Source: Saprospiraceae bacterium
GTDB lineage: Bacteria > Bacteroidota > Bacteroidia > Chitinophagales > Saprospiraceae
Direction: 5' to 3'
Length of the DNA: 64,000 nt
NCBI GenBank assembly: GCA_020630735.1
Contig: JAHDIP010000001.1
Span: 1-64,000, forward strand
Numbering within the stretch: the first letter of the stretch is position 1; the number at the start of each line of letters is the position of its first letter. Positions 1,162 to 38,687 of the stretch are shown piece by piece. Under the pieces are notes generated by a model that saw only the letters and a program-made list of their open reading frames with translations, searched no databases and was not told where the DNA came from. The position numbers and the translations under genes were made by a program.

Positions 1162-1642
1162 GAAAGAAGATTTTTTATATCATAAAACTTAATACAACAA
1201 ATATATAGCTAATAAGTACAACAGGGATATGACATTTTTATCGATAAAGTTAGACACAAAACAGACAACAACTCAGTTAAAAAAATTAATTAAAAACTGA
1301 TTATCAAATATTTATGACATCAAAAATATTATTTATTCGGAGAAGCCATACTTTCATTAATCAATTTTTTTCGGTAAATTTGAACTACACAACAATGAAA
1401 TTGTTTTTTAATGTGTCTTTTTTACTTTAGGTAAAGATCGTATAAAGCTTACCATAGTTTAAATAGTCATTTTTTTTTGTGTCAAAAGACTATTAAATTA
1501 TGGATGCACATTTATTTTTTCTGATGTTTTTCTGAAAGCAACTAATCTGAAATGATCATCGCCTTATGTGACCCCATAGTTAATCGTTTATGTATGGTCT
1601 CTTCATTTTAATGTAGCAAAAGGCGACTATTTACTTTTAGAA
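1162..1642. other. Intergenic region, mostly featureless
   Basis: AT-rich DNA without a convincing gene. A TAAATTTG at 1375-1382 on the plus strand fits the Bacteroidota -7 element, but the only ORF just downstream (1395) encodes 11 residues. A hairpin with arms near 1458-1468 and 1488-1497 (TTTAAATAGTC / GACTATTAAA, one bulge, T-rich loop) could be a terminator for the minus-strand micro-ORF at 1643-1777. Confidence 0.4.
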
Positions 1643-1777
1643 TTATAAATCTGCTGAGTCGTCAATAATTATTTCTTCGTAATAATCGCGTTGAGCTTGA
1701 TCTAAATTATTGTATTCTGATTCCGAAGAAATGAAACCAAATAAAATCATTAGAGAAATTAATATTGAAGTAATCAT
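1643..1777 (-). CDS. Small ORF, 44 aa, hydrophobic N-terminus and acidic tail
   Basis: The ATG at 1777 opens a 44-codon frame. Residues 2-16 are hydrophobic (MITSILISLMILFGF), like a signal peptide or single membrane helix. The rest is hydrophilic and acidic (DYYEE, IDDSAD). The layout is that of a small secreted or membrane-anchored peptide. It stands in otherwise empty DNA, has no recognisable homologue, and could be chance, although hydrophobic-then-acidic composition is unusual for random AT-rich sequence. Confidence 0.35.
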   Translation of the reverse strand: MITSILISLMILFGFISSESEYNNLDQAQRDYYEEIIIDDSADL

Positions 1778-2122
1778 GACATAAGGGTTTTATTAAATTC
1801 GGGAACCAAATCGAACCGAATTTTTCTAATTAAAAAAAAGATTGAAAGATCAATTTTACCAGATAAGGAGAAAAACTAAAATTGATTATAATTAAGAGTC
1901 TCTGTGGTAAATTGATATTACAAATATAGGTTGTATTAATACATTAGGGTAGGACAATAATTCTATTAATATGGGGAGGGAATCTAGCATATACCTTACT
2001 AGCTAAAATCGCAAGTCACTATATATCAATATGTTAAAAAAAACAAAATAGTTTTCTTTGTTAGAGAAAGCTTCTGTTTTTGAAATATAATCACCCTTTT
2101 TCTTGAGCTCAAAACTAGAATA
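1778..2122. other. Intergenic region upstream of the 513-aa gene
   Basis: No gene seen. It must hold the promoter of the gene at 2123, but no clear TAnnTTTG element could be placed at a good distance. Confidence 0.4.
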
Positions 2123-3664
2123 ATGGAAGAACTACAAGAACTCGCTTACATTTTAACTAAACACAAAACTCGATCCATAGAAATCATTGGAGATGATTCT
2201 AAGCAGTACGATTCCAAACTTTACCACCTTTATCAGGCTATAAAAAATGGCGATGTAAAGAATGATGCCCAAGCCGTTTTTGCAATTTATGGCGAAAAGA
2301 AAATATCAGGAAAATATCGCAACCTAAAACATGAACTAAAAAAAAGACTATTCAATACCGTTCTATTTATTGATACTAACTCTCAAAAAAGTAAAGATGA
2401 AGTTTACTATCAATGTTGGAAAGAGTGGGCTGCTTGCCGAATTTTAGTAGAAAAGTCTGCTAGAAAAGTTGCCATAAAATTAGCCGAAAGAATTTTAAAA
2501 AAATGCGTGCAATATGAATTCCATGAATTGGTCATTTCCATTTCTATTTTGCTTCGCAGCCACTACGCCTTAAGGGAAAAGAATAAAGAAAAATTTGAAT
2601 ACTATGATAGTCTATATAACTTTTCGAAAAAACAGGAAAAATATAAAAATCTTGCACATAAGTATTACATGAAGTTGATCCTTGATTATGCAACAGAAAG
2701 TGTCACCGCTAATCCATTAATTGAAGATGATGCTAAAAAGTATTACCAAGAATTATCCAACTTAAAAAACAAAACTAACAATCTTAAATTCCATTATTAT
2801 TTATTCCAAATTCAATTAATTGGTGCGATGGGAATTTTTGATTACAAAAGAGCTAAAGATATTTGTACTGAAGCTATTTCTTTCTTACATCATTCCAATG
2901 GTTTTGATTTTGAAGGAGGTATCAGAAATATTTTACTAAACAAACTCGTTTGCCATATTCAGCTTAAAGAATTTGAAGAGGGTATCATAACAGCTTCAGA
3001 ATGTAAAAATTTTGTATCAGAAGGAACATTTAATTGGTTCAAGACCAATGAATACTTATTCATGCTTTCTATTCACACCACAAACTATCAGGATGCCTAT
3101 GAAATTTATCATGCAAACATTTCTCACCCAAGATTCAAAACATATAAAGTGCTCCACGAAACATGGTTACTCTATCGCATATATCTACATTTCTTATTCT
3201 TAGTCGGAAAAATTACTCCGCTAAAAAAAGATAAAAGCTTTAATACTATTCGGTTAGGTAAATTCCTAAATGATGTTCCATCCTTTTCAAAGGATAAACA
3301 CGGCATGAATATTCCTGTCTTAATCGCTCAAATGGCTTTCCTTATTTTACAGAGAAAATACGATGCTGCAGCTGAAAGAATTGATGCACTCAACAAATAT
3401 TGTGATCGTTATTTGAAAACTAACAATCCCAATTTTAGATGCAATTGTTTTATAAAAATGTTATTGCAAATTCCTATTTCTGGTTTTCATAGAACTGGTG
3501 TAAAAAGAAGGGCACATAGGTATTTAGAAAAATTAAAAACTATAGATATAAATTTTAGTAACCAAGCTCATGAAGTAGAGATATTACCTTTTGAAATAAT
3601 GTGGGAACTTATTCTCGATTCGCTCCAAAACAAAAACTTTAAACTCAAAAAAAGATTTACTTAA
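2123..3664 (+). CDS. Conserved-looking helical protein of unknown function, 513 aa
   Basis: I do not recognise a named family. The protein is soluble, strongly basic, lacks a signal peptide, and is almost entirely helical. The N-terminal 75 residues form a separate unit rich in charged residues (KYRNLKHELKKRL). Residues about 110-470 consist of helix pairs with TPR-like spacing (for example the stretches around LAERILKKC and FDYKRAKDICTEAI), which suggests a protein-binding solenoid. It is a single transcription unit ending at the bidirectional hairpin 3697-3733. A cytoplasmic scaffold or regulator is likely, but no reaction can be assigned. Confidence 0.6.
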   Translation: MEELQELAYILTKHKTRSIEIIGDDSKQYDSKLYHLYQAIKNGDVKNDAQAVFAIYGEKKISGKYRNLKHELKKRLFNTVLFIDTNSQKSKDEVYYQCWKEWAACRILVEKSARKVAIKLAERILKKCVQYEFHELVISISILLRSHYALREKNKEKFEYYDSLYNFSKKQEKYKNLAHKYYMKLILDYATESVTANPLIEDDAKKYYQELSNLKNKTNNLKFHYYLFQIQLIGAMGIFDYKRAKDICTEAISFLHHSNGFDFEGGIRNILLNKLVCHIQLKEFEEGIITASECKNFVSEGTFNWFKTNEYLFMLSIHTTNYQDAYEIYHANISHPRFKTYKVLHETWLLYRIYLHFLFLVGKITPLKKDKSFNTIRLGKFLNDVPSFSKDKHGMNIPVLIAQMAFLILQRKYDAAAERIDALNKYCDRYLKTNNPNFRCNCFIKMLLQIPISGFHRTGVKRRAHRYLEKLKTIDINFSNQAHEVEILPFEIMWELILDSLQNKNFKLKKRFT

Positions 3665-3696
3665 TAAAAGCATATATCTTTACAAAAGTGAAAATC

Positions 3697-3733
3697 AAAA
3701 ATGGCGATTGAGTATAACCCAATCGCCATTTTT
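3697..3733. terminator. Bidirectional intrinsic terminator
   Basis: A perfect 14-bp stem (AAAAATGGCGATTG with its complement, loop of 9 nt) with A- and T-rich outer ends lies between the convergent genes ending at 3664 and 3754, so it can end transcription in both directions. Confidence 0.8.
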
Positions 3734-3753
3734 AATCTAACTAAATATAAAAC

Positions 3754-4821
3754 TTACTGTTCTTGTCCTTTCAATTTTTCTGCATTTTCAGCTACTTGTA
3801 AGGCCTCGATAATTCCTTTAATATCTCCTTGGACAATTTTGTCGAGACTATATAAAGTGAGATTTATTCTATGATCTGTTACTCTATTTTGAGGATAATT
3901 ATACGTGCGTATTTTTCCAGAACGGTCGCCCGTACCTACTAGTGAACGACGACTTGCAGCTACTTCCGATTCGTGTTGTTCGCGTTGAATATCATACATT
4001 TTTGCATACAATCGTTCTAGTGCAATTTCTCTATTTCTCAATTGATTTCGGCTCTCTTGGCTTTCTGCAACGACTCCTGAAGGTAAGTGCGTAATCCGTA
4101 CTGCCGATTCTGTTTTATTGACGTGCTGACCACCAGCACCACTCGCTCGGTAAGTATCTATTTTGAGGTCTGCTTTGTTGATATTTACATCTTCGATATC
4201 AAGCTTTGGCATAACGACAACCGTTGCAGCAGAAGTATGCACACGACCTTGCGATTCTGTTTTGGGTACTCGTTGAACACGATGAGCTCCCGATTCAAAC
4301 TTTAGGTTTCCATATACATTGTTACCTGTAATTTCTAACACTAACTTACTAAAACCTCCCGCTGTCCCTTCATTTTCATAAATAACATCAACCTTCCATT
4401 TTTGGTCTTCAAAATATTTAGAGTACATTCGAAATAAATCACCAGCAAATATACTTGCCTCATCGCCACCTGTTCCTGCACGTATTTCAAAAATCACATC
4501 TTTCGAATCTTCTGGATCTTTTGGTATTAATAGTATTTTTATTTCTTCTTCTAGCCGTGTTTTTTCTGGTTCTAACCCTTCGAGTTCCTCCTTCGCCATT
4601 AGCCGCATTTCTTCATCTGACTCCGAAAGCATCTCTTTAGCAGTATCTATATTGCCCAAAACATTTTTGTACTCATGGTAGTGTTCTACCAGTACCTTTA
4701 GCTCCTTATATTCTTGGCTTACTTTTTTGAAACGCTTCATATCCTTATGAATTTCAGGATCAGATAATTGTTCCTCTAAATGGATATATCGCTCGTGAAT
4801 AGCTTCTAGTTTATCTAACAT
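3754..4821 (-). CDS. prfA: Peptide chain release factor 1
   Basis: Class I release factor, which reads UAA/UAG in the ribosomal A site and triggers peptide hydrolysis. From the chosen start the protein is 355 aa, the normal RF1 length. The codon-recognition tripeptide is PKT (186-188) in RVPKTESQGR. The catalytic GGQ is at 230-232 in SGAGGQHVNKT, and the C-terminal GDRSGKIRTYN and DHRIN motifs are typical. The frame is open to 4860, but the RF1 family starts at MLDKLEAI, 13 codons inside, so the ATG at 4821 is preferred. It shares terminator 3697-3733 with the convergent gene. Confidence 0.95.
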   Translation of the reverse strand: MLDKLEAIHERYIHLEEQLSDPEIHKDMKRFKKVSQEYKELKVLVEHYHEYKNVLGNIDTAKEMLSESDEEMRLMAKEELEGLEPEKTRLEEEIKILLIPKDPEDSKDVIFEIRAGTGGDEASIFAGDLFRMYSKYFEDQKWKVDVIYENEGTAGGFSKLVLEITGNNVYGNLKFESGAHRVQRVPKTESQGRVHTSAATVVVMPKLDIEDVNINKADLKIDTYRASGAGGQHVNKTESAVRITHLPSGVVAESQESRNQLRNREIALERLYAKMYDIQREQHESEVAASRRSLVGTGDRSGKIRTYNYPQNRVTDHRINLTLYSLDKIVQGDIKGIIEALQVAENAEKLKGQEQ

Positions 4822-5017
4822 AATCTGTTGTTTTTTGAAAAAAGAAAAAGAATAGGGCAATGCTGTATAGCAGGTAAGAATAATAAAGCTAGATGAAGTG
4901 ATGAATAGTACAGTACATTCTATTTTATGTGTTAATGCTGCAAAAAACGTATTTTCTGTTTAATAAGGCGATTGAACCGACTTAACTACTTAAGGTTTTT
5001 ATATAAGTCAAGTTAAA

Positions 5018-5055
5018 AATAAAGCCTTGTAAACTAGATATTTACAAGGCTTTTT
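5018..5055 (-). terminator. Intrinsic terminator of tRNA-Met
   Basis: A 13-bp perfect stem (5021-5033 with 5041-5053, AAAGCCTTGTAAA) starts right after the tRNA 3' end on the minus strand and is followed by a T-rich tract. Confidence 0.8.
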
Positions 5056-5056
5056 G

Positions 5057-5130
5057 TAGCGAGAGGGAGACTTGAACTCCCGACCTCAGGATTATGAATC
5101 CTGCGCTCTAACCAGCTGAGCTACCTCGCC
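5057..5130 (-). tRNA. tRNA-Met (CAT), elongator type
   Basis: Read on the minus strand, a full cloverleaf can be drawn. The acceptor stem GGCGAGG pairs with TCTCGCT (first and last pairs G-U). The D arm is GCTC/GAGC, the anticodon stem CAGGA/TCCTG with loop TTCATAA gives anticodon CAT, and the T stem is GGGAG/CTCCC with loop TTCAAGT. CCA is not encoded. The first acceptor pair is a wobble pair. Initiator tRNAs have an unpaired 1-72 and GGG/CCC anticodon stem pairs, which are absent here, so this is the elongator or, less likely, the lysidine-modified Ile2 tRNA. Confidence 0.9.
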
Positions 5131-5146
5131 ATTTTCTAAGCGACTG

Positions 5147-5181
5147 CAAATATACAGTTTTTTGCATTTTTTATAAACAAT
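5147..5181 (-). promoter_or_regulatory. Promoter of tRNA-Met
   Basis: On the minus strand TATATTTG (5147-5154) matches the Bacteroidota -7 consensus TAnnTTTG, 16 nt before the mature tRNA 5' end. A TTG at 5178-5180 is a possible -33 element with slightly long spacing (23 nt). Confidence 0.55.
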
Positions 5182-5221
5182 ATTTGAAGATATTTCTTTT
5201 ATTGATGAAAAGAATCTAATT

Positions 5222-5605
5222 ATGACAGATAGAGACCAATATTTACTGGGTATACGTCCACAAATTCTTACAGACCAAATAACTGTAAGTAGCTCTGAAA
5301 AGTTCCAAAATGAGGTGCTACGACCGATTTTGAAGCTACAAAATGATTTATTGTTACTATTATTCAAGCAATATATCGTCCAGCGAAAAAATACGTTCCA
5401 TAATAAGACTAAAACAGAGCGCCTAGCTTTTATCCAACAGAGTATCCAAAAAGATATGAAATTTAAAAACTTGATGGTCGGTTGTATTATTGGACATTTT
5501 ACAAGCGACGAATGGGCCACTTTCTGCACAGAAAAGGAAGAAATAGGACGGCGCATTAGTACATTATTAATACAGCGCCTACAAAGTCAAATGACTGAAT
5601 TTTAA
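5222..5605 (+). CDS. Conserved hypothetical protein, 127 aa
   Basis: A small soluble helical protein with a central stretch of leucines and an amphipathic pattern (QNDLLLLLFKQYIV), ending in a basic helix. It resembles short Bacteroidota proteins that start near ...IRPQI and contain FQNxxLRPILKLQNDL; some databases label these 'glyoxalase', but I see no metal-binding or active-site motif to support that name. It starts 92 nt beyond the divergent tRNA gene. It is probably a monocistronic housekeeping protein of unknown role. Confidence 0.6.
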   Translation: MTDRDQYLLGIRPQILTDQITVSSSEKFQNEVLRPILKLQNDLLLLLFKQYIVQRKNTFHNKTKTERLAFIQQSIQKDMKFKNLMVGCIIGHFTSDEWATFCTEKEEIGRRISTLLIQRLQSQMTEF

Positions 5606-6949: not shown

Positions 6950-8446
6950 CTAGCCAGCAGATTTGTCTAAGCGATTTAGACCTGCCTTTGCCTTTTGGTG
7001 CAAACTACTTTTGTACTCATCTGGCTTGATTGACAAACAGCGATTGAAGTACTCTGTTGCTTTTTTGTTACTCCCTTGTTGTTCGTAGATTAGACCTATC
7101 TGAAGTGCCGCATTACATGCAAAATAATACCCTTCATATTGTCCTACATCTATTGTTTGCTGATAATAGTTGATTGCTTTTTGGTGTTCTTTTAGGCTGT
7201 GCGTAATACGACCAAGTCGATAGCTGAGTTCTAGCTTTGAACGATTATCTGAAAAATTAGCTGTAGAATAATTACTTAATAAATCATATGCTCGTTGATA
7301 GTATCCGCCGTCAAAAAGTAGTCGTCCTTGTAGAAGTTTTGCGTTAGGAGCAACACCTGAACGTGCTTCCTTCAATGCTGTTTTGTCTCCGCCTATAATA
7401 GATGATCCTTTGATTTTACATTGGTTCATATTATAGTGGTAGCCCTCGTCATTCCCCATCAATAAGTGAAACCAAGCAATTTTTTGATAGGCTTCTTTTA
7501 CATAATTTTGACCATTAAATTTGGTAACATAATCTTCCAAATGGACTTCAGCATCTTCATCTAGTCGATACAATTTACACAATCCAAGCATGTAATCTAA
7601 GTAATAAAAATTTTGTATTTGTTTGCTTTTAGGACGATTTTCTAGTAGTCGAATAGCTTCGTCATTGCGCCCTGTACGCATAGCTACATTAGCTAAAACA
7701 AAACAAGCTAAAGGATTTTCGGCAGCTCGAAGTTTTCCGCTATTAATAATCTTCCAAGCTTCTTCGCTTTTATTGTTGAGGTGCAACATCAAAAAGGCAT
7801 ACATCACTAGTGTTTCTTCTTCGAACAAAAATTCGTTGTACTTCGCATATTCGATTACTTCTTCGATTTCTTTTCGACCTTGTTCAATACTTCCTGTTAG
7901 ACTACTCAGTAAAGAAACTCCCCATTTGTAATTATCGGGAATCGTTCCAACCATAGCATGAAGAATGCCAAGACTTTTCTTGTTTGCAATAAAATCAGGA
8001 AATTTTTCTTGATTTTTTGTCAATAACTTGTGAGCAGAGTTTACTTCTTTGAACGCAGCAAAGTATTCTTCAAATTTTAGACGAGCAAGTGCCCATTGCA
8101 ATTTTATTTCAGCTTGTAAAAATAAATAATACGGAGATGCTTTGTCACCTGCTTTTATCTTATCGAGACGTTTACTTTTATTGTTTTCTAACTGATCGAA
8201 TTCTGCCTTATTTTCATTGATGAAAATTTTGAAAAAATCGATATAATTTTCAATGTAATGAACGATGAGGTTATTCGGTTCTTCTGCTTTGAGTTTTATC
8301 AATAGAGTTTCCGCTTCCCCAAAACGCAGATTCAAGACCTTATCATAAGCAGCCTTAGCATTTTCGCTAAACACAAAATTACCTTGAGCCAAGTTTTGGC
8401 TTATGATAAATAAAAAGCAGAAGAAAAAGGTATAATATTTTTTCAT
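6950..8446 (-). CDS. Secreted TPR-repeat protein, 498 aa
   Basis: The signal peptide is MKKYYTFFFCFLFIISQNLAQ, so start residue 3 of the longest frame (8446) is chosen. The mature protein is helical throughout, with tetratricopeptide-like helix pairs. The clearest are near the C-terminus (GYYFACNAALQIGLIYEQQG, then KKATEYFNRCLSIKPDE), plus several in the middle such as NPLACFVLANVAMRTGRNDE. TPR solenoids bind partner proteins, here in the periplasm. The gene is monocistronic and flanked on both sides by inverted family I repeats. No enzymatic motif was seen. Confidence 0.75.
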   Translation of the reverse strand: MKKYYTFFFCFLFIISQNLAQGNFVFSENAKAAYDKVLNLRFGEAETLLIKLKAEEPNNLIVHYIENYIDFFKIFINENKAEFDQLENNKSKRLDKIKAGDKASPYYLFLQAEIKLQWALARLKFEEYFAAFKEVNSAHKLLTKNQEKFPDFIANKKSLGILHAMVGTIPDNYKWGVSLLSSLTGSIEQGRKEIEEVIEYAKYNEFLFEEETLVMYAFLMLHLNNKSEEAWKIINSGKLRAAENPLACFVLANVAMRTGRNDEAIRLLENRPKSKQIQNFYYLDYMLGLCKLYRLDEDAEVHLEDYVTKFNGQNYVKEAYQKIAWFHLLMGNDEGYHYNMNQCKIKGSSIIGGDKTALKEARSGVAPNAKLLQGRLLFDGGYYQRAYDLLSNYSTANFSDNRSKLELSYRLGRITHSLKEHQKAINYYQQTIDVGQYEGYYFACNAALQIGLIYEQQGSNKKATEYFNRCLSIKPDEYKSSLHQKAKAGLNRLDKSAG

Positions 8447-8531
8447 GAGCAAATATCAATTCGTTGATATAGACATATTCTTAACGCTAAAAGGAGACTT
8501 ACCGTTGTCAGTCGAAAGGCATTTAATTTAT

Positions 8532-8607
8532 GCCTACTGATATTCAGTTTTAAGATCATCGTTTGGAATAATTTTTTGGTTATCCAAAACCTCTTCGTTT
8601 TCAGTAT
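8532..8607 (+). repeat. Family II intergenic repeat, copy
   Basis: Matches the copy at 10758-10862 at both ends (CCTACTGATATTCAGTTTTAAG-ATCATC and ATCCAAAACC-TCTTCG-TTTTCAGTAT) with an internal deletion of about 30 nt. Confidence 0.55.
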
Positions 8608-8616
8608 CTTCCATTA

Positions 8617-8844
8617 AGTAATGGCCGAAAAATAAGTTCCGTATTTTGGCAAGGGAATTTTGAGTTTAGACGAGGAGAAAAACGTAGGGATAGCCTAGCT
8701 ATCACGAGGCTTTTCGACATGAATGCAGTGGTGCAAAGCAGAAAAGATTTTGGAAATCTTTTCAACGAAAAGAACCGCTAGCGGTCGGGTCTGCAACTCA
8801 AAAGTGTCAACCACAAATCGGGAAGTTATTATTTGACCATTACT
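8617..8844 (+). repeat. Family I MITE-like repeat, copy B (228 nt)
   Basis: The longest copy. Same sequence as copy A in opposite orientation, with extra bases near 8690-8705. The ends are AGTAATGGCCGAAAAATAAG and CTTATTATTTGACC-ATTACT type inverted repeats. No coding capacity. Confidence 0.8.
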
Positions 8845-8882
8845 AAAAAACCCTGAAGAATTTGATTTCTCCAGGGTTTTTT
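8845..8882 (-). terminator. Intrinsic terminator of the zinc-ribbon gene
   Basis: Stem AAAAAACCCTG/CAGGGTTTTTT extended by AGAA/TTCT past one mismatch, with T-runs on both outer ends, 22 nt after the minus-strand stop at 8904. Confidence 0.75.
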
Positions 8883-8903
8883 ATTTTCATTTTAATAAAT
8901 ACC

Positions 8904-9677
8904 TTATTCAGCCGTTGGTTCTGTTTCAGCTACTGGTTCTACTAAAATATCTTGATCAACCAAGATTCTACCACAATGTTCGCAAACGAGTACTTTTTTG
9001 TGTAGACCAATTTCTAATTGTGTTTGAGGTGGTATTTTGTTAAAACAGCCCCCACAACTATTACGTTCTACCGTAACTACTGCTAAACCATTACGGTAAC
9101 TTTTCCGTAGTTGATTGTATGCTTTTAGCAATCGATCTTCGATCTTTTTCTTAGCTTTTTCAGATTTTCTTGCTAATTTTTCTTCTTCTTTTATCGTCTT
9201 TTCGATAATTTTTTCCAGCTCAACTTTCTTAAGTTCTAAGTCTTTCTTTTTAGCATCAAGACGTTCTTCAGAAACTTTTAATGTTTCTTGCTTATTAGAT
9301 ATAAAGTTTTGACCTTCTCTAATCTTTTTATTAGATAATTGAATTTCAAGCTTCTGAAGCTCTAACTCTTTAGTTAGGGCATCATATTCTCTATTATTCT
9401 TTACATTATCCATTTGCTTTTCATACCGCTCAATCAAGCTTTCAGCCTCTTTGATATTGGCGTGATGGTTAGCCACTGTTTTTTCTAGATCAGTTATACT
9501 GTCTTTTAGTTTATTTAAACGAGTATCTAAACCCACTATTTCATCTTCAAGATCACTAACCTCTATAGGAAGTTCTCCTTTGAGGATTGCTATTTCATCG
9601 ACTTGAGAATCTATTAATTGTAATTCGTATAAACTTTTGAGCTTGTCAAAAATTGAAGAGTCTACTTTTTTTGCCAT
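8904..9677 (-). CDS. CdsZ-type coiled-coil zinc-ribbon protein
   Basis: A 257-aa protein with a long coiled coil (residues about 10-190, charged heptads such as EERLDAKKKDLELKK) and a C-terminal four-cysteine zinc ribbon CGGCF ... CEHCGRIL. This is the family once named DUF164, found across bacteria. The ribbon probably binds nucleic acid, and the precise cellular job is unsettled. It is encoded 6 nt after the Nif3-family gene on the same strand, a pairing often conserved in Bacteroidota, so the two are likely co-transcribed. Terminator 8845-8882 follows. Confidence 0.85.
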   Translation of the reverse strand: MAKKVDSSIFDKLKSLYELQLIDSQVDEIAILKGELPIEVSDLEDEIVGLDTRLNKLKDSITDLEKTVANHHANIKEAESLIERYEKQMDNVKNNREYDALTKELELQKLEIQLSNKKIREGQNFISNKQETLKVSEERLDAKKKDLELKKVELEKIIEKTIKEEEKLARKSEKAKKKIEDRLLKAYNQLRKSYRNGLAVVTVERNSCGGCFNKIPPQTQLEIGLHKKVLVCEHCGRILVDQDILVEPVAETEPTAE

Positions 9678-36320: not shown

Positions 36321-36794
36321 ATGAAAAATTTAATGCTGCTTTCTATTATCTTTTTTGTGTTATCTGGCTGTGGTCCTAATTATATTTTTGATCAAAAAAA
36401 AGATATTCAAGATTTAGCTTGGAGTTATAATGATACCTTGAACTTTGAAATTGATATTCAAGATACTTTAAAAATTTACAATCTGTATTTAGATATTGAA
36501 CATAGTATCGATTATCCTTTCCAAAACATCTATACCCAAATTTATACTCAATTCCCATCAGGAAAACGAATCAAAGAACGGTTACCTATCGATTTTTCGG
36601 AAAAATCAGGAAAATGGATTGGAGATTGTAGCAATGATATTTGTACCCTCCGAGTAAATATTCAAAAAGGAGCTTTCTTTAATGCTCTTGGTAAGCATAA
36701 GATTACAGTAGAACAATTTATGAGAGACAATCCTTTAAAAGGCATAAAAAGTATTGCTCTTCGAATAGAAGAAACATCTAACAAAAGACAATAG
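36321..36794 (+). CDS. gldH: Gliding motility lipoprotein GldH
   Basis: Lipoprotein associated with gliding motility and the type IX secretion system of Bacteroidota. The 157-aa protein has a lipoprotein signal with lipobox LSGC (Cys17). The GldH pattern follows: LAWSYNDTLNFEIDIQD, then YNLYLDIEHSIDYPFQN, GKWIGD, and near the end RDNPLKGIKSIALRIE. The cell need not glide; GldH is also found in non-gliding species with T9SS. PorZ and a T9SS cargo protein elsewhere in the window support an active system. Confidence 0.85.
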   Translation: MKNLMLLSIIFFVLSGCGPNYIFDQKKDIQDLAWSYNDTLNFEIDIQDTLKIYNLYLDIEHSIDYPFQNIYTQIYTQFPSGKRIKERLPIDFSEKSGKWIGDCSNDICTLRVNIQKGAFFNALGKHKITVEQFMRDNPLKGIKSIALRIEETSNKRQ

Positions 36795-36965: not shown

Positions 36966-38687
36966 ATGAATAAATACAAATGGTTATCCCATGCTTTTGT
37001 TGCCCTTATTTTGATGTGGACAACAAATCTACATGCTCAATCAACTTTCCAAGAAGTTTATAATATCATACAAACCAAATGTACAGGTTGCCATGGAGGT
37101 GACTCTCCTCAAGGAAATCTCGATTTAGACCTTTCAGAAGCGGGTGTATATAATGCTTTAGTAGGTACAAATCCAACCAATCCATCGGCTTTAAGTAAAG
37201 GCTACAAACTGGCTGACCCTGGTTATCCAGAACGCAGTTATCTTTTGCACAAATTGGCTACAGCTGATTGGGATAATAGTTTTTCGTTAGAAGTAGCTGA
37301 TGGTAATACAATGCCTCCATCTCCACTTCCTGCATTAAGTGAAGTAGAAATAGAACTTTTCCGACAATGGATTATGTTTGGTACTCCTCAATCAGGTACC
37401 GTTGTAGATCGTTCTGTTTTGGAAGACTATTATGAAAATGGTTTAGCTTTACCTGGTGTCACTGCACCACCTGCACCAGACCCATCGGAAGGCATTCAGA
37501 TACGTTTAGGTCCTATTTTTTTAGCACCTTTACAGGAAGAAGAATACTTTAAAAAACACTTACTTGATTTTGGTGAAAATGTGGAAGTAACTAAAACATC
37601 TGTAGATTTTAATGACGAATCGCACCACTTTATCTTATACCAATTGAGTAATGGTAATGCGCAAAGTTATGCTGAAGGTCTTCGGAATATAGATAGTGGT
37701 GAATTTTCCATGACTAGTAATTCTTCGATAGGTGTTTGGCAAAACAGTGATGAGTTTCGACTACCAGAAGGAGCTGCTTACAAATGGCCACAAGGCACTC
37801 ATCTGGATCTAAATTTTCATGTTAAAAATTATAGTCCTGAAGGCGTATTAGCTTGTGATGCTTATATCAATATTAATACTCAAGAGGATGGGATTGCAGA
37901 ACAAGAAATGTTTTCTGTTATCATACCTATCAATTTGTTTGAGACCTTTTTAGGAGAACCTATTGGGAATGGCTTAGTCATTCCAAACGATGGAGAAGAA
38001 CATGTATTTAGCGATCTTTTTGCAGTACCTCCAGTACCTGGTATTCCTTTTCCTTCAGGTGATTGGTATCTCTGGCAACTCTCATCTCATACGCATGCTC
38101 GAGGAATCGATTATGATATTTATATCTCCGATGGCGGCGAACCTGGTGAGCAAATCTATGAAGGCTTTTACAATTTCAACTATACCTTCAACCAAGGTTT
38201 TTTTGATTGGGAGCATCCAGCGATCCGATATTTTGAACCTTTAAAGAAAGTAGATATGTCTCTAGGTGGAGGATTAATACAAGAAGCTACCTATATAAAT
38301 GATGGTCCAGAACCTCTTGAGTGGGGCTATACAACCGACGATGAAATGATGCTAATGACTATTCAATTCACTGCTGGTCCATTATCCTCTTCTACTCCTG
38401 TTGTAGAAACGGCAAGTACTGATTTTTCTTTCACTGCTTCCCCTAATCCGTATCAAGGACATACAAGTATATCGTATCAACTAAACGAAAAAGCACAAGT
38501 GAGTTTAGAGGTTTTTAACGTATTAGGTGAACGAGTTCAGTTATTAGTTGATGAAAAACAAGCTGCTGGAAAATATCAGCAAACATTCAGTGCTGAAGCA
38601 TTGGGTTTACCAGCTGGAATGTATCTAGTAAACCTTACTATTGATGGTCAAAAGATCAGTAAAAAGATAATCGAAATGAATAACTAA
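36966..38687 (+). CDS. Secreted haem c / PHM-like copper monooxygenase fusion with T9SS tail
   Basis: A 573-aa exported protein in three parts. After a signal peptide (1-24) comes a c-type haem site CTGCH (39-43) in a short cytochrome-like domain of about 120 residues. Residues about 175-470 resemble copper type II ascorbate-dependent monooxygenases (PHM/DBM family). His220-His221 (SHHFILY) and His285 (NFHVKN) fit the first copper site. HTH at 375-377 and Met461 in DDEM fit the second. The C-terminal 85 residues are a T9SS type A sorting domain (SPNPYQGHTSISYQL, FNVLGERV, LPAGMYLVNL). Substrate unknown. Single gene ended by hairpin 38716-38754. Confidence 0.8.
   Translation: MNKYKWLSHAFVALILMWTTNLHAQSTFQEVYNIIQTKCTGCHGGDSPQGNLDLDLSEAGVYNALVGTNPTNPSALSKGYKLADPGYPERSYLLHKLATADWDNSFSLEVADGNTMPPSPLPALSEVEIELFRQWIMFGTPQSGTVVDRSVLEDYYENGLALPGVTAPPAPDPSEGIQIRLGPIFLAPLQEEEYFKKHLLDFGENVEVTKTSVDFNDESHHFILYQLSNGNAQSYAEGLRNIDSGEFSMTSNSSIGVWQNSDEFRLPEGAAYKWPQGTHLDLNFHVKNYSPEGVLACDAYININTQEDGIAEQEMFSVIIPINLFETFLGEPIGNGLVIPNDGEEHVFSDLFAVPPVPGIPFPSGDWYLWQLSSHTHARGIDYDIYISDGGEPGEQIYEGFYNFNYTFNQGFFDWEHPAIRYFEPLKKVDMSLGGGLIQEATYINDGPEPLEWGYTTDDEMMLMTIQFTAGPLSSSTPVVETASTDFSFTASPNPYQGHTSISYQLNEKAQVSLEVFNVLGERVQLLVDEKQAAGKYQQTFSAEALGLPAGMYLVNLTIDGQKISKKIIEMNN

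Follow-up and report, generated by a model that had tools for sequence, protein, structure and literature searches.

A cytochrome c, PHM/DBM-type copper monooxygenase and T9SS tail fusion predicted to act at the cell surface of Bacteroidota

The window, a stretch of 64,000 nt from a Saprospiraceae bacterium, contains a gene for one secreted chain that combines a c-type haem domain, a PHM-type dicopper domain and a T9SS export signal, and this unit is conserved across a large family. The combination had been proposed in a sequence-only reading, and the residues named there (CTGCH at 39–43, HH at 220–221, H285, HTH at 375–377 and M461) were all found in place. The favored interpretation, to which we assign a probability of roughly 0.6, is that the protein is a cell-surface dicopper monooxygenase of the PHM/DBM fold that has its own c-type haem electron-transfer domain and is reduced in cis. 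The features of the gene are compiled in Table 1. The layout was matched by relatives of 541–607 aa, and the opposite strand of the gene is devoid of open reading frames of 80 aa or more.

Table 1. Positions of the gene and its features in the window
Feature	Position	Strand	Basis
Whole gene, secreted fusion of cytochrome c, PHM/DBM-type copper monooxygenase and T9SS tail, 573 aa	36966..38687	+	ORF with ATG start and its own stop
Sec signal peptide, about residues 1–25 (MNKYKWLSHAFVALILMWTTNLHAQ), without lipobox cysteine	36966..37040	+	Sequence reading; cleavage site predicted
Mono-haem cytochrome c domain, residues 26–162	37041..37451	+	PSCyt1 match; model; PDB matches
Haem c attachment motif C39-T-G-C42-H43	37080..37094	+	Conservation: C39 in 71/71, C42 and H43 in 70/71 homologues
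M116 of MPP motif, probable second axial haem ligand	37311..37313	+	Met in 62/71; ligand role predicted
PHM/DBM-type double jelly-roll copper monooxygenase domain, residues 165–474	37458..38387	+	Foldseek, structure superposition
H220-H221, CuH ligands (= PHM H107-H108)	37623..37628	+	Profile alignment; invariant 71/71
H285, CuH ligand (= PHM H172)	37818..37820	+	Alignment; invariant 71/71
H375-T-H377, CuM ligands (= PHM H242, H244)	38088..38096	+	Alignment; invariant 71/71
M461 in DDEM, CuM ligand (= PHM M314)	38346..38348	+	Alignment; invariant 71/71
T9SS type A C-terminal sorting domain, residues 493–569	38442..38672	+	TIGR04183, PF18962

Fold and ligands of the copper domain

Searches with the single sequence against Pfam, NCBIfam and the PDB sequences did not detect the copper domain, which was recognized only with a profile of the family and a modelled structure. 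The earlier recognition of the motifs was therefore a real find and not a restated annotation. The window protein has no score with PF03712, and 20 of 23 aligned relatives matched this family at E ≤ 0.1, with a best value of 1e-7. A profile of 55 copper domains from relatives retrieved PHM by sequence at E = 1e-4. Proteins of the fusion type are thus easily overlooked, as the window member lies under the Pfam copper-monooxygenase threshold.

The AlphaFold model of the full protein, built with 23 relatives, had a pLDDT of 77 and a pTM of 0.70. Its best 30 PDB matches were exclusively DBH or PHM (Foldseek, E 7e-12 to 2e-7; Z 16–21), and the E-values were 7e-12 for human DBH and 3e-11 for rat PHM. 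Superposition of the catalytic region of the model, residues 165–474, with VIA-align yielded a Z of 20.7 for PHM (6ala_C; 256 residues, 3.4 Å) and of 19.2 for human DBH. The next fold was PNGase, which is also a double jelly-roll, at a Z of 9.0. The sequence-only reading had asked whether the listed His and Met residues cluster in a predicted structure, and at the level of the fold the outcome agrees with this, as the model superposes on PHM across both jelly-roll domains and each of the six residues is aligned with a copper ligand of PHM by the profile. Specifically, HH aligned with H107/H108, HyvN with H172, HtH with H242/H244, and DEM with M314. The PHM site numbering agrees with the titles of PDB entries ('H107A (no CuH bound)', 'H172A (CuH absent, CuM present)' and 'M314I mutant'), and the spacing between H221 and H285 is 64, the same as between H108 and H172 of PHM.

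All six copper ligands were invariant in the 71 aligned homologues, many of which have 26–30% identity. E460, W135, P267, N288 and N302 were also invariant in the 71 members. The motif set is far beyond chance, because the copper ligands are present in 71/71 and the Cys/Cys/His of the haem site in 70/71 homologues. Membership in the PHM/DBM-type (copper type II) monooxygenase superfamily is well supported by the modelled fold and by the aligned CuH and CuM sets. Metal loading and monooxygenase chemistry are predicted properties of the fusion protein.

Haem domain and routes to the cell envelope

The N-terminal domain matched PSCyt1 at E = 2.7e-4 and 21.9 bits, just under the Pfam cut-off of 22. 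Residues 26–162, modelled alone with 67 relatives, reached a pLDDT of 95.7. All PDB matches of this model were c-type haem proteins, with modest scores (best Z 7.8, best Foldseek E 0.24), and the top matches were the haem domain of hydrazine synthase (Z 7.8) and FoxE (7.6). The attachment motif was found in 70 of the 71 homologues, and its spacing varied between CX2CH, CX3CH and CX4CH, depending on the member. An MP motif follows the attachment motif in 56 of 67 haem domains, and the probable axial Met is absent from about one eighth of the homologues. His/Met ligation of the haem is thus likely in the family, but not universal. Covalent loading of haem at C39/C42 is predicted.

TIGR04183 recovered the claimed sorting tail at residues 492–569 with 42.2 bits (cut-off 23), and the tail also matched PF18962 at E = 6e-10. 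The genome of the window encodes the SprA translocon (2447 bits), the lipoprotein GldH, a CcmF_C-type cytochrome c assembly protein, and 44 further stretches that resemble a T9SS tail. A signal peptide, a TIGR04183 domain and a T9SS in the same genome, the characteristics of T9SS type A cargo, were therefore all present.

Export signals were not uniform across the family. By simple pattern, a tail without a lipobox was recognized in 47 of the 71 members and a lipobox without a tail in 17, whereas six have both and one has neither; the members without a tail are nearly all lipoproteins. The tail label switches only three times on the tree. Because tail and lipobox mostly replace each other and tail changes on the tree are few, the same enzyme appears to reach the cell envelope by two different routes.

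Distribution of the fusion and its split and haem-less relatives

A search for the same fusion in other genomes had been suggested as a check, and it revealed that the fusion is not peculiar to the window protein but common within the order and present again in a second subfamily of Bacteroidota. A sample of 395 genomes from the phylum contained 26 with a match, which in a few cases was limited to the haem domain, and of 120 close relatives, 40 had a match, about one third of those sampled. A query with the copper domain matched in 87 of the 249 genomes screened from the order. Multiple or tandem copies are common, with two each in L001, L114, L123, L125 and L137. Other genomes have up to five copies of the fusion gene, and one locus (L136, G495:C3, 6718–14323) contains a tandem array of four genes with the cytochrome-PHM-T9SS layout, next to a SUF-like cluster. 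The copy in the window clusters with those of G473 and G477, which belong to other families (SH-aLRT 99), apart from the copies of its own family. This position on the tree suggests that it may be an old paralogue or the result of a transfer.

The second subfamily (L061–L090) was found by a search with PF03712 (Cu2_monoox_C). It shares with the window family the N-terminal CxxCH domain, the PHM domain and, mostly, the tail-length extension; among 16 aligned proteins, 15 have CxxCH, the remaining one being cut by the contig, and 14 have the extension. It differs from the window family in its QVHY and HMHL motifs and in scoring clearly with PF03712. The two subfamilies are homologous end to end, as the hhalign profile match (E = 3e-39) spans both domains. 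One member (L090, 1447–3246) has, by eye, an extra N-terminal thioredoxin/redoxin-like region before the cytochrome and PHM domains. No study of bacterial members was found in the open literature searched, which was screened for bacterial PHM, for PF03712/PF01082 proteins and for T9SS cytochromes. The fusion family is common in Bacteroidota and yet appears to be unstudied.

The haem and copper domains are on one chain in all but five of 90 tree rows, and such joint travel is as expected for a pair of domains that would exchange electrons. One of the five exceptions is cut by the end of a contig, and another has a separate adjacent cytochrome gene. In the latter (L153, G411:C24), the cytochrome (5002–5532) and the PHM domain (4037–4972) are encoded by separate, adjacent and co-directional lipoprotein genes. 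The split form is nested within the fused clade on the tree, and therefore, it is best read as a gene fission. The two genes belong to a co-directional run (1490–5532) that continues with genes for a small protein resembling outer-membrane proteins, for MbnP (E = 1e-46) and for a CCP_MauG-like protein (MbnH-like; di-haem peroxidase-like). In L133, the haem motif was lost and the six copper ligands were kept. This gene (7236–9425) encodes a natural haem-loss variant of 729 aa with a T9SS tail. L154 and L155 have no haem motif and no cytochrome gene nearby. A few relatives thus have a copper domain but no haem site. Taken together, a haem in cis is not essential in every lineage, because L133 lost the motif, L153 has it on the adjoining gene, and L154 and L155 have none nearby.

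Electron supply, substrate and comparison with known systems

In the proposed mechanism, the chain would leave the cytoplasm by Sec and receive its haem at C39/C42 in the periplasm; once folded, it would cross the outer membrane via the T9SS and be anchored or released there. Electrons from a respiratory or extracellular donor would enter at the haem (H43/M116) and would be passed on to CuH (H220/H221/H285) and then to CuM (H375/H377/M461). O2 would be activated at CuM for the C-H hydroxylation of an external substrate other than the glycine-extended peptides of PHM. That the haem replaces ascorbate as the electron donor, as the sequence-only reading had considered, is plausible, and the flow from haem to CuH is a prediction. 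More tentatively, and with slightly less than even odds, the family might be a large group of bacterial enzymes at the cell surface, each a PHM/DBM-type dicopper monooxygenase with a c-type cytochrome as its built-in reductase. The activation of O2 on external substrates would then be coupled to the respiratory chain or, via haem proteins exported by the T9SS, to extracellular electron transfer.

The existence of L133, L154 and L155, in which the six copper ligands are still invariant, and the variation of the distal haem ligand in some members would also fit a copper monooxygenase that receives its electrons from a diffusible reductant, be it ascorbate-like, a quinol or a thiol. The haem would then have another task, as an electron exit, in the sensing of O2/peroxide or redox state, or in docking to other surface cytochromes. 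However, the haem site is kept in 70/71 and 15/16 members of the two subfamilies, nearly as strictly as the copper ligands, and the adjacent separate genes in L153 point to a joint function. A diffusible reductant is therefore regarded as unlikely.

The gene neighbourhoods were clustered for 20 and then for 42 loci, and no recurrent functional partner emerged; the conserved neighbours at the clustered loci were housekeeping genes only (ParA-like, SUF genes). In the window, the gene for the GldH lipoprotein (PF14109, 5e-31; 36321–36794) lies directly upstream of the fusion gene, with dnaJ on its other side, and is an ordinary neighbour. Genes for MbnP and MbnH-like (CCP_MauG) proteins were found beside the family gene in L153 and L042, two of about 62 loci. 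The MbnP/MbnH-like module is linked to copper binding, and this adjacency would be in line with a copper-handling protein or cuprous oxidase that binds and oxidises surface copper, while the haem takes the electrons away. However, about 0.3 such adjacencies are estimated to occur by chance, and the CuH and CuM sets, including the Met ligand, are invariant, which would not be needed for copper storage. We thus consider a role in copper handling improbable. Most carriers have one to four MbnP genes per genome, and with two loci only and MbnP being common in these genomes, the adjacency is regarded as a lead. In L042 (G190:C17, 8020–12186), a fused cytochrome-PHM lipoprotein gene lies near the CCP_MauG and MbnP genes on one strand. 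The genome of the window (G000) has four MbnP (PF20243) genes on C74, C78 and C79, which are unlinked to the fusion gene, and MbnP seems to be expanded in its group.

The animal PHM-type fold is used to finish peptide hormones, and R240, N316 and Y318 of PHM hold the carboxylate of the substrate. These residues align with S373, L463 and T465 of the window protein, and in the 71 homologues the three positions are variable (T/M/S/F, I/V/L and F/V/I/Y). The position of PHM Q170 is occupied by Asn in 69 of 71 members (N283 in the window protein, before the third CuH histidine). The chain has no further catalytic domain, and PAL was not found among the recurrent neighbours. The designation 'PHM-type' thus holds for the fold and the copper sites, but not for the equivalents of the substrate-binding residues. 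As these are replaced and variable, peptide amidation is not expected, and the substrate is probably not a glycine-extended peptide of the PHM type. Amidation was rejected on the substrate residues. A true peptidylglycine hydroxylase, acting on peptides at the surface by amidation or cleavage, would have the same fold and copper ligands, but with the three residues not conserved and PAL neither fused nor recurrent nearby, it is very improbable. A decayed or non-functional relative, to which a missing conserved genomic partner and the PSCyt1 score below the cut-off might point, is hardly credible, as the ORF is intact, the active-site residues are invariant, and the gene is kept in many genera with tandem duplications.

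The route of electrons to and between the two distant coppers of PHM/DBM enzymes has long been argued and has been studied in ascorbate-using animal enzymes. In the haem-dicopper fusion, a covalent haem in the same chain would serve as an optical reporter and supply a third electron internally, and transfer from haem to CuH and CuM could be followed directly. With the fusion, Bacteroidota would gain an O2-activating copper enzyme in their surface repertoire. The fusion also implies that the T9SS exports matured c-type cytochromes, and the family points to new substrates.

Compared with rat PHM (1phm/1sdw), the protein has the same two-domain jelly-roll over 256–265 residues and the six copper ligands in register. 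In contrast to PHM, to which its identity is about 15%, it lacks R240/N316/Y318 and PAL, has N283 for Q170, and carries a fused haem c and a T9SS tail. DBH (4zel) shares the catalytic fold and also has an extra N-terminal domain ahead of the copper domains. This domain is a DOMON domain in DBH, for which ascorbate is the donor, whereas it is a c-type cytochrome in the window protein. The haem domain resembles those of PSCyt1-type proteins, hydrazine synthase and FoxE in being a mono-haem c domain with CxxCH, an MP motif and a C-terminal helix with an invariant Trp; however, the sequence similarity is weak, and the window domain is fused to a copper monooxygenase. A haem domain that reduces an extracellular copper monooxygenase is known from cellobiose dehydrogenase, which feeds LPMOs, but there the haem is of the b type and the proteins are separate, whereas the window protein unites a haem c with a dicopper enzyme in one chain.
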